Part shown: positions 3,667 through 47,729 of the stretch, in pieces | Numbering within the stretch: position 1 is the stretch's first letter | How the letters are laid out: every line of letters begins with the position of its first letter | From: Luteimonas arsenica | Lineage (GTDB): Bacteria > Pseudomonadota > Gammaproteobacteria > Xanthomonadales > Xanthomonadaceae | Length of the DNA: 64,000 nucleotides | Assembly (NCBI RefSeq): GCF_004352825.1 | Contig: NZ_SJRW01000002.1 | Span: 248,001-312,000, forward strand | Reading direction: 5' to 3' | The notes under the pieces: model-generated | Seen by the model: the letters and a program-made list of their open reading frames with translations, nothing else | What the model was told of the DNA's origin: nothing | Database searches by the model: none | Program-made: the position numbers and the translations under genes

Positions 3667-3790
3667 GACAGATGCAAGGTCTGTCGCAGATCACTCCCCT
3701 CCCCTGGAGCTGATCGACCCCGGAACGTAAGGCTTCTCCCCGAGCCCCGTTCTCCAGCCCCGCCGGCCCCCCCTGCCTGCGGGGCTTTTT
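3667..3790 (+). ncRNA. C-rich trans-acting sRNA, sX13-like, at the Spot 42 position
   Basis: The gap between polA and glk encodes an apparent structured RNA of about 120 nt. Three hairpins are visible, each exposing a pyrimidine/C-rich loop. Hairpin 1 pairs GATCA-CTCC with GGAG-C-TGATC around a CCTCCCCT loop. Hairpin 2 pairs GGCT with AGCC around TCTCCCCG, inside an outer AACG/CGTT pairing. Hairpin 3 is the terminator, whose loop is CCCCCCT. A -10-like TATA run lies at 3655-3660 and would place the start near 3667. As I recall the Xanthomonas literature, sX13 is an Hfq-independent regulator of about 115 nt with C-rich loops that pair with G-rich mRNA leaders; enterobacterial Spot 42 lies after polA. 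Start is approximate and homology is inferred from structure and location. Confidence 0.65.
3757..3790 (+). terminator. Rho-independent terminator of the sX13-like sRNA
   Basis: The arm GCCCCGC (3757-3763) pairs with GCGGGGC (3779-3785). An inner GGC/GCC pairing leaves a seven-base loop of six Cs and a T. A run of five Ts follows at 3786-3790. Confidence 0.85.
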
Positions 3791-3836
3791 ATTGCCTGTA
3801 GCCTATGGGGCCTGACCCGCTGCCTGGAGCGAAGCC

Positions 3837-45902: not shown

Positions 45903-47027
45903 TTACTTCAGCGTCACCAGCTGCCCGAGGACGCCGTCCAGGCCGCCGAAGACGGTCAGCCTGTCGATCTTCTCGGTGACCTTTTCCAGGGCCTCCAGCT
46001 CCTTCAGGCGCATGAGGACCGGGCTTTCGTCGATCAGCTTCGCGGTGTTGAGCAGCGAGCGCGTGGCGTTGGCCTCCTCGCGGCGGCGGATCACGTTGGC
46101 CTGCGCCAGCTTCTCCGCCTGCACCACGCCGTTGAGGATCTCGCGCATCTCGCCCGGCAGGATGACGTCCTTGACGCCCACGCCGAGCACTTCGATGCCG
46201 AGCTCCTCCACGCGGCCGCGCACGTACGCGAAGATTTCCGCGTCCAGCGTGGCCTTGTCGCCGAGCAGTTCGTCGAGCGTCTTCGCGGCCACGGCCTTGC
46301 GCAGGCCGTACTGCAACTCGCGGTAGACGTAGTCGCCGTACTTCGCCACCCGCGTACGCGCGGCGACCGGGTCGGTCACGCGCAGCGAGGCGGCGAGGTT
46401 CACGCGCAGGCTCACCTTGTCGCGGGTCAACAGTTCCTGGCCCGACACTTCCATGGCCTGCACGCGCAGCTCGATGGTCTCCACCGCCACGTTCTTCCGG
46501 AAGTTCCAGAAGGCGTAGCTGCCGGCGCCGACCACCTGCTCGAGCGTGTTGTCGACGAACACCAGGCCCGCCGATTCGGCCGGCACCTCCAGCACCACGG
46601 CCACGCGGGCCAGGATGCCGAGCTGGCGCAGGCGGCGCGCCACGTCCGGCGCGACGCGCAGCCCCGCGGCCAGCGCGGCGTTCTCGACGTCAACCTGCAC
46701 CAGGCCACGCCAGTACAGCGTGCGAAGACCCGGCGCCAGCACGTCCTCGAGTCGGCCGTTCTTCGACACCAGGCCGACCTCGTCCATGCCGATGTCGGCG
46801 AGCACGAAGGTTTCGCCGAGGCGGTCGCCCAGCGCGGCGATCAGCGTGTCGGCATCGTGGCCGGCGTACTCCGGCTTGCGGATGTCGTGCACGACGACCT
46901 CGAGCTGGTCGCGCCATGCGAACAGGCGGTGCACGCCCGGCGCGAGGACGCGCTCGAAGCGGCGATTGCGATACACCAGGCCGCGCTCAGCGTCACCGAT
47001 CACGACCCTTCGGGTCCAGAACATCAT
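45903..47027 (-). CDS. Slipin (SPFH/Band 7 family) protein
   Basis: The 374-residue protein belongs to the SPFH/stomatin superfamily. N-terminal residues (RRVVIGDAERGLVYRNRRFE, then VLAPGVHRL) form a beta-rich domain. The SPFH core includes VEVDVENAALAA-like VQVDVENAALAAGL, SYAFWNFRKNVAVETIEL, LLTRDKVSLRVNLAASLRVTD and LGIEVLGVGVKDVILPGEM. A long C-terminal helix (AEKLAQANVIRRREEANATR) should drive oligomerisation. There is no strong transmembrane helix. AAGGAG lies seven bases before the ATG at 47027. Slipins of this type are reported near RtcB RNA-repair genes; none is in the window, but two tRNA-like sequences precede it on the same strand. Confidence 0.86.
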   Translation of the reverse strand: MMFWTRRVVIGDAERGLVYRNRRFERVLAPGVHRLFAWRDQLEVVVHDIRKPEYAGHDADTLIAALGDRLGETFVLADIGMDEVGLVSKNGRLEDVLAPGLRTLYWRGLVQVDVENAALAAGLRVAPDVARRLRQLGILARVAVVLEVPAESAGLVFVDNTLEQVVGAGSYAFWNFRKNVAVETIELRVQAMEVSGQELLTRDKVSLRVNLAASLRVTDPVAARTRVAKYGDYVYRELQYGLRKAVAAKTLDELLGDKATLDAEIFAYVRGRVEELGIEVLGVGVKDVILPGEMREILNGVVQAEKLAQANVIRRREEANATRSLLNTAKLIDESPVLMRLKELEALEKVTEKIDRLTVFGGLDGVLGQLVTLK

Positions 47028-47376
47028 GGGTTTTCTCCTTGTGAATGGCTCTGGTGATCCGGTTCGCTGGGGTGCGGGGAACCGGTTGCCGCGCTGCCGG
47101 CCACGGGATGCGGCCGACGGAAAAGGTGGAAACGTCCCTGGCGGACGCCGCGCGGGCGGCCGGTGCTGGCAATGGCGTCTGGCGAGGCTTTGCGGCGAGC
47201 CCATGAAGGCGCGCTTCCGCTTTTCCCCGCCGTCGGCCACCGCCAGGACGCGGTGCCGGTGCGGTGCCCGCTGCCTGCTTCGTTGCGCATCGCGATGGAT
47301 TGCGACGCCTGGCGGAACAGACACGGGACGTTCCCGATTCGGGCTTGCGCCCTGTTGTGCTGATGACAATCAGCGA

Positions 47377-47450
47377 TCGTTGGAGCGGGATTCGAACCCG
47401 CGACAAATGGATTAAAAGTCCATCGCTCTACCCGTCTGAGCTATCCAGTG
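47377..47450 (-). tRNA. tRNA-Lys(UUU)-like sequence with defective acceptor stem
   Basis: The minus strand folds as a cloverleaf. D-stem GCTC/GAGC, anticodon stem ATGGA/TCCAT with loop CTTTTAA (anticodon TTT at 47416-47414), and T-stem GCGGG/CCCGC with loop TTCGAAT are all perfect. The acceptor stem is not: CACTGGA against TCCAACG has mismatches at pairs 2 and 3, and no CCA follows. The body differs from the standard bacterial tRNA-Lys. It abuts the upstream tRNA-like unit with no spacer. A hairpin, GCTGAT/ATCAGC around a four-base loop, lies just downstream (47359-47374). It may be a real unusual tRNA, a pseudo-tRNA, or a tRNA mimic. Confidence 0.6.
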
Positions 47451-47523
47451 GTCAACGTGCGGGACTCGAACCCGCAACCGACAGCATCCGAAGCTGTTGC
47501 TCTACCGATTGAGCCAACGTTGT
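47451..47523 (-). tRNA. tRNA-like sequence, anticodon CGG (nominal Pro), aberrant
   Basis: Minus-strand cloverleaf with D-stem GCTC/GAGC, anticodon stem ACAGC/GCTGT, loop TTCGGAT (anticodon CGG at 47490-47488) and T-stem GCGGG/CCCGC with loop TTCGAGT. The acceptor ACAACGT/ACGTTGA has six pairs and an A-A mismatch at the end. If the acceptor were only six pairs, ACCA would follow, overlapping the next unit. Position 37 is A, whereas genuine tRNA-Pro has G there, so proline identity is doubtful. The unit ends exactly where the Lys-like unit begins. Confidence 0.6.
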
Positions 47524-47729
47524 CGCAGTCGCCTCGAACCGGCATCGGCATACGCCACGGCAACGCCGCGCGCACCGGACGGAACCAGAGCCCGCACCGC
47601 GGTTGCCGACCGAGATCCGACTGCGCATTGCCGCCTGTTTCGAAGCGGCAATCCTTTTGCGTCGCACCGCGCCGCGTCCCTGCCGCGGAGTCGCACGATG
47701 CACGCCTGTTCCAGGTGTCCTTTGCGAAT

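Follow-up and report, generated by a model that had tools for sequence, protein, structure and literature searches.

Tandem tRNA-like RNAs and a structured leader precede an SPFH (slipin-type) gene in Luteimonas arsenica and related bacteria

Results

Organization of the locus

The window, which is the whole stretch of 64,000 nucleotides analyzed here (Luteimonas arsenica, contig NZ_SJRW01000002.1, positions 248,001 to 312,000), comes from an assembly of seven contigs listed as 100% complete, and all coordinates count from its first letter. The minus strand carries a structured leader RNA (47545-47600), defined by covariation and by the covariance model R1, with a hairpin P1 and then a bulged stem with an inner hairpin. 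It also carries two tRNA-like units, each supported by ARAGORN, Rfam and covariation: unit 1 (47451-47523, minus strand) has CGG at the anticodon position and unit 2 (47377-47450, minus strand) has TTT. Between the pair and the next start codon lies an untranslated stretch (47028-47376, minus strand) in which GC-rich hairpin-like sequence is visible by eye. The next gene downstream begins 350 nt past the pair in the same orientation and is an SPFH/Band_7 gene of the slipin type (45903-47027, minus strand; 374 codons; PF01145, 98.1 bits) with an intact open frame. Leader RNA, tRNA-like unit 1, tRNA-like unit 2 and SPFH gene, in this order, are a conserved operon-like module. Elsewhere in the window, Rfam located the Xanthomonadaceae sRNA sX13 (3676-3791, plus strand, 73.6 bits).

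The predicted cloverleaves are confirmed and differ from ordinary tRNAs

The original prediction described two complete cloverleaves abutting on the minus strand, with one acceptor mismatch in the first and two in the second, no correctly placed CCA in either, and A37 in the CGG unit where a real tRNA-Pro has G37. Our analysis reproduced this description. ARAGORN and Rfam both found the two tRNA shapes, with zero spacer by the Rfam coordinates, and the Rfam scores of 59.4 bits (CGG unit, 47523-47451) and 61.4 bits (TTT unit, 47450-47377) are far above the cut-off of 29. The non-standard acceptor pairs marked by cmscan are one in unit 1 and two in unit 2, and CCA is absent after the full 7-bp acceptor of both. 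The anticodon loop of the CGG unit reads TTCGGAT, with A37, versus TTCGGGA, with G37, in the genome's own tRNA-Pro(CGG). Alternatively, the acceptor of unit 1 is readable as 6 bp (CAACGT/ACGTTG), which places an A-CCA directly after it that extends into unit 2, as had been predicted for an in-phase ACCA end. Unit 2 has a short acceptor, TGGA/TCCA, and perfect D, anticodon and T arms, and position 33 is T in both units. MFE folding of the 279-nt stretch did not return the cloverleaves and gave no unusual stability (z -1.66); we rejected whole-stretch folding as uninformative, and ARAGORN at a relaxed threshold was dropped as useless.

Infernal scores, which the prediction had proposed as a check, were not telling. 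The genome has 47 tRNA hits scoring 50.4 to 76.8 bits, so the scores of the two units alone would not flag them as odd. An encoded CCA end is present in all 45 other tRNA genes of the genome and in neither tandem unit. Separate genes for tRNA-Lys(TTT) and tRNA-Pro(CGG, G37) exist, so that both anticodons are already covered.

The module is conserved across relatives

Searching 398 genomes of the order at E 0.001 gave matches to the SPFH protein in 201, with 96 places scoring at least 360 bits, of which 90 were used. At E 1e-40, matches came from 22 of 369 class-level and 23 of 398 phylum-level genomes, and both sets include the L. arsenica genome itself and some others. A single script was applied to 146 upstream regions (order, 105; class and phylum, 41). 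It located two T-arms at a spacing of 60-80 nt in 133 of the 146 (13 of them exact repeats, leaving 120 distinct); in 4 of the 13 regions without a pair, the upstream DNA is shorter than 800 nt. The same detector found a pair in 0/146 regions on the other strand, in 1/146 downstream, and in 0, 0, 1, 0 and 0 regions of five shuffles. The single downstream pair belongs to a locus (L177, G667:C148) whose SPFH gene is flanked on both sides by a tRNA gene array, which possibly links it to the cyanobacterial tRNA arrays.

Among 80 named loci, 77 have at least 600 nt of upstream DNA, and 58 of these 77 contain the pair when a T-arm spacing of 58-82 nt is allowed; most of the other 19 belong to distant lineages, in which either a single T arm or a closer pair of T arms (43-48 nt) is seen. 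Since the genomes share ancestry and some named loci come from genomes already in the order set, these counts do not represent independent events. Loops and stems were read by a custom script around the T-loop pattern, which misreads lineages with a seemingly half-cloverleaf second unit. The tandem arrangement with no or nearly no spacer is itself conserved. At one locus (L070, G058:C135) the tandem pair is intact and the SPFH gene behind it appears interrupted.

The pair consistently precedes the SPFH gene in the gene's own orientation and almost never occurs behind it or on the opposite strand. This would also be expected if leader and units were processing or control elements of the SPFH(-RtcB) mRNA that are cut by RNase P or tRNA 3' enzymes, with tRNA-processing capacity setting expression. 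The zero spacing and the A-CCA reaching into unit 2 may likewise point to a tRNA-processing site. However, the second T arm can be as close to the start codon as about 220 nt (L181) or as far from it as about 1,380 nt (L156), which is loose for a cis-acting switch, and two complete, covarying cloverleaves exceed the needs of a processing site. We consider this explanation distinctly unlikely.

Copies in Enterobacteria look different. E. coli carries a slipin gene with a nucleotidyltransferase gene, and a Citrobacter plasmid copy is annotated as rtcR, slipin and nucleotidyltransferase. At least 80% of the queried stretch is present in 1,621 of 5,426 E. coli genomes. In the E. coli (L302, L323) and Citrobacter (L303) copies a single T arm was found upstream of slipin, and the leader model gave no match at E 10 for L302 and L303. 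These copies may therefore be a reduced form of the module or another arrangement. A leader-like hairpin is seen at these loci by eye only, and in strain hubt-sl a zeta-toxin-family gene neighbors the slipin and nucleotidyltransferase locus. A phage or plasmid origin of the module was rejected: no SPFH match at E 1e-20 was found in 50,697 phage records, and matches at E 1e-30 came from 9 of 72,556 plasmid records, several being megabase replicons.

A structured leader RNA without an Rfam family

The leader stem (GGUGC.../...GUAUGCC) contains an AU bulge and an inner hairpin. We aligned 44 loci with MAFFT, a structure-free method, and predicted the structure on the same alignment (A3). Both sides change in 16 of 18 predicted pairs, 95.8% of cells are paired, and 0 of 500 shuffles were as good. 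R1, built from 38 loci, scores 68.9 bits at the leader in the window, which is a training sequence, and the next best match in the window has 11.5 bits. At E 0.001, R1 recognized 87 of 100 module loci and missed 13; with the 24 training loci among the 100 set aside, the figure is 63 of 76, and some of these loci are nearly identical to training sequences. A search over 299 genomes gave 18 matches, eight of them at 34.9 bits or more. All eight are followed by an SPFH gene with tandem T-arms, and four are training loci (G000, the L. arsenica genome, and G896, G833 and G840). Burkholderia cenocepacia, which is outside the training set, matched at its SPFH locus with 34.9 bits. Ten matches fell below 34 bits, one of them by an SPFH gene, and the rest are probably mostly chance; those away from SPFH genes (L313-L316 and L318-L322) have 26.6-32 bits. 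Rfam contained no family matching the leader stretch at E up to 10. Hence, to judge from covariation and model matches, the leader appears to be a structured RNA that lacks an Rfam family and stands upstream of SPFH genes in several lineages of the phylum.

Stems covary while the anticodon turns over

The original prediction had also proposed covariation of the arms in relatives as a check, and the stems do covary. In 28 aligned tandems, 97.5% of cells are paired versus 82.5% in shuffles, both-side changes occur in 25 of 38 pairs, and no shuffle among 500 matched any of five measures. The unit-2 acceptor TGGA/TCCA is paired in 28/28, with both-side changes in three of its four pairs. A hairpin of the YrlA type at the junction between the units was rejected, with 63.9% of cells paired versus 63.3% in shuffles; this reading loses to the unit-2 acceptor, which is 100% paired and covaries.

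The anticodons behave differently from the stems. Of 120 second units we kept the 93 whose stem is strong and whose loop has 7 nt, and these have 30 different triplets at the anticodon position; two are stop anticodons, and 15 of the 93 units have an A34 anticodon other than ACG. U33 is kept in 62 of the 93. A clear anticodon stem was seen in 83 first units, whose loops measure 7 nt in 33 and 3 to 6 nt in 45; 26 loops are tetraloops, 13 of them GNRA. In 20 disjoint close pairs of loci, differences per site were 0.35 for the triplet, 0.22 for dS, 0.085 for the anticodon stem and 0.041 for the T arm, and the triplet differs in 11 of the 20. At larger distances the triplet is near synonymous, with 0.48 versus a dS of 0.41. 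The anticodon triplet thus evolves at or somewhat above the synonymous rate, and we do not claim positive selection.

Stems that are held by compensatory changes while triplets turn over would suit a bait, in which the units are sacrificed to anticodon nucleases (toxins or phage-triggered defence) or inhibit them competitively and the loops change as the attackers change. Loops equal to real tRNA loops do recur (CTCATAA 11 times and CTGTTAA 10 times in the 93 units), and counted with repeats there are 28 matches to real tRNA loops versus 15.5 in shuffles. However, distinct loops equal genuine ones in 7 of 57 cases versus 6.3 in column-shuffled loops. The excess vanishes when each loop is counted once and may therefore reflect shared descent, and the idea that the loops deliberately copy the real tRNA loops of their genome was rejected. 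The unit-1 loop is often incompatible with a normal anticodon loop, as the tetraloops illustrate, unit 2 of a Burkholderia copy has a GAAA loop (read by eye), and in the E. coli and Citrobacter copies only a T arm was found. Plain lack of constraint suffices to explain a triplet that changes at a near-synonymous rate at larger distances. For the YrlA RNA, Hughes et al. suggest, in the part of that paper available to us, that the tRNA-like domain may competitively inhibit a nuclease (PMC7790460). Taken together, we regard anticodon bait as rather unlikely.

The same data bear on whether the units are ordinary or decaying tRNA genes, such as pseudogenes or remnants of tRNA arrays, that lie beside a slipin gene by chance. 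The calls at 59-61 bits, the SPFH gene inside a real tRNA array at L177 and the Asp anticodon GTC in unit 1 of L070 and L137 would be compatible with this. Decay is at odds with the conserved position and the strong covariation over a phylum, and decoding with the stop and A34 anticodons, the loss of U33 in relatives and the lack of CCA. This explanation is highly improbable. An encoded CCA and an anticodon conserved in relatives, as expected of a translation tRNA, are both missing, and U33, which the window units retain, is lost in relatives. We conclude that the two cloverleaves are not maintained as decoding tRNAs. The proposal that they are a tRNA mimic or decoy rather than translation tRNAs thus holds in its first part: a mimic is well supported, and action as a decoy, or as one molecule of about 150 nt, is unproven. 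An anticodon decoy fits poorly because the T arm, the D arm and mostly the leader are constant and the anticodon loop is not, and because only one T arm was found in the Escherichia and Citrobacter copies. For annotation, caution is advisable, as such units can be counted as tRNA genes; ARAGORN called both here.

The Luteimonas arsenica copy lacks RtcB

RtcB is present in 68 of 80 chosen genomes with the module and was not found in the other 12. At the 80 named loci, one Luteimonas-type RtcB query, applied to at most 3 kb of flank, gave a match beginning no more than 1.2 kb past the SPFH gene in 46 and a match upstream of it in 6. There was no match at the remaining 28, of which 5 have less than 300 nt of downstream sequence. 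Seven of eight genomes from other classes of the phylum had no RtcB hit and one had a weak hit of 101 bits. In one genome with RtcB upstream (G050), the tRNA-like pair still precedes the SPFH gene, which indicates that where RtcB is upstream the RNA goes with SPFH.

We did not find RtcB in the L. arsenica genome, the window included, and an RtcB remnant in the window was rejected (best tblastn E 0.15). DNA similarity between the window and G033 stops just past the SPFH gene, shortly before the RtcB gene of G033, and loss of RtcB is therefore the simplest reading. The SPFH gene has dN/dS values (NG86) of 0.12-0.13 against G033, G005 and G362, and these three give 0.11-0.13 when compared with one another; RtcB is present in G033 and G005. 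Judged by these ratios, the gene is under purifying selection; relaxed selection in a genome lacking RtcB was rejected because dN/dS is the same as among the relatives. Ligation by RtcB cannot be the role of this copy, since the module is present here without RtcB, and the retention of leader, pair and SPFH gene suggests that the RNA-SPFH part can be kept alone, if the loss is not very recent.

RtcR was found in 18 of 60 module genomes and not in the other 42, L. arsenica included. It is divergent and adjoins the module in six genomes (G840, G919, G1091, G1146, G968 and G563), all distant relatives of L. arsenica. In five of these six, the SPFH start is preceded at a distance of 512-569 nt by a TGGCACG-type sigma-54-like site, which lies upstream of the leader in the four that have a leader match. 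In the order set (105 regions), the site had three scattered matches, and in the window no sigma-54-like site was found upstream of the SPFH gene. Hence, this copy has neither the adjacent rtcR nor the sigma-54 promoter of an RtcR-regulated operon.

Discussion

The cloverleaves are very probably the tRNA-like noncoding RNA part of a conserved SPFH module that often contains RtcB and is sometimes under a divergent RtcR. The SPFH/slipin setting, often with RtcB, is the main clue to their function. To our knowledge, the role of SPFH/slipin proteins in RNA-repair operons has not been addressed by experiment.

We propose that the module would be switched on when tRNAs are cut in the anticodon loop and that RtcR, where present, would sense the cut tRNA. 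The transcript would supply RNAs shaped like the tRNA elbow, made of D and T arms, that may bind an SPFH oligomer. By analogy with Y RNA and Ro60, these elbow RNAs could be a scaffold or gauge on which damaged tRNA collects, together with RtcB if the genome has it; in the RtcB-less L. arsenica, only a holding or competing function could remain. That tRNA-elbow RNAs serve as a scaffold for SPFH assembly, with the binding this predicts, seems to us plausible at somewhat below an even chance. A putative scaffold or competitor that presents the elbow to SPFH is favoured over anticodon bait because the elbow arms, and mostly the leader, are constant and the anticodon wanders or vanishes.

The full proposal is that leader and tandem units form one Y-RNA-like scaffold for SPFH assemblies, recognized by its elbow and independent of RtcB, with an anticodon loop that evolves at or above the synonymous rate and a leader that is an uncatalogued family defining the system across Pseudomonadota. 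We put this forward tentatively, as a possibility well short of even. It makes the function of SPFH/slipin proteins in RNA-repair operons testable, with a compact RNA that has three separable parts (leader, elbow and variable loop) and with natural variants that have or lack RtcB.

Comparison with known systems

In Anabaena, the repressor TrcR, which is tied to translational stress, acts on a tRNA array and on both rtcB and a slipin gene, according to the part of the report available (PMC10272220). The likeness to our module is that tRNA genes, RtcB and a slipin gene share one regulator there. By analogy, the RtcB ligase and the shared Anabaena repressor fit the module being an RNA-damage response. 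However, the 26 tRNA genes of the Anabaena trn array are on a plasmid, apart from the slipin gene, and the portion of the report at hand mentions no tandem pair directly before that gene (PMC10272220).

The rtcBA operon of Salmonella and E. coli, controlled by RtcR and sigma-54, resembles the module in RtcB, RtcR and a response to cut tRNAs, as far as the accessible part of its description goes (PMC7790460), whereas the L. arsenica genome has neither RtcR nor RtcB. A search of the main text of PMC7790460 for slipin, SPFH and tRNA gene gave no match. YrlA (RF02553), the Y RNA of Rsr-RtcBA operons, is likewise described in that source, in the part consulted, as a tRNA-like RNA in an RNA-repair operon (PMC7790460). 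Its T arm-D arm module aligns with the T arm of unit 1 and the D arm of unit 2 at 34.7 bits, but this is half the gathering score of 69, and several Y-stem pairs are unpaired in the window. A TROVE/Ro60 protein was not found in the L. arsenica genome, so that both the score and the partner of a YrlA RNA are missing.

The pair is probably best filed as a variant of the SPFH/Band-7-associated tRNA-like RNA. In 2016, Burroughs and Aravind reportedly described SPFH/Band-7 modules of RNA-repair systems with 'a novel tRNA-like molecule', and a tRNA-like RNA beside a Band-7 gene in RNA-repair operons would be the likeness; this kind of RNA is therefore probably already known. The literature that we searched, which did not include the 2016 work, contained no published description of it. 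At our locus a tRNA-like RNA immediately precedes a Band_7 gene of the same orientation and no RtcB was found in the operon, so we assign this copy to the module only as an RtcB-less variant. Compared with the module as reportedly described, this copy differs in that no RtcB was found, and the tandem overlap through A-CCA was recorded here. Overall, our analysis adds the turnover of the anticodon, a copy without RtcB and a leader that is absent from Rfam.
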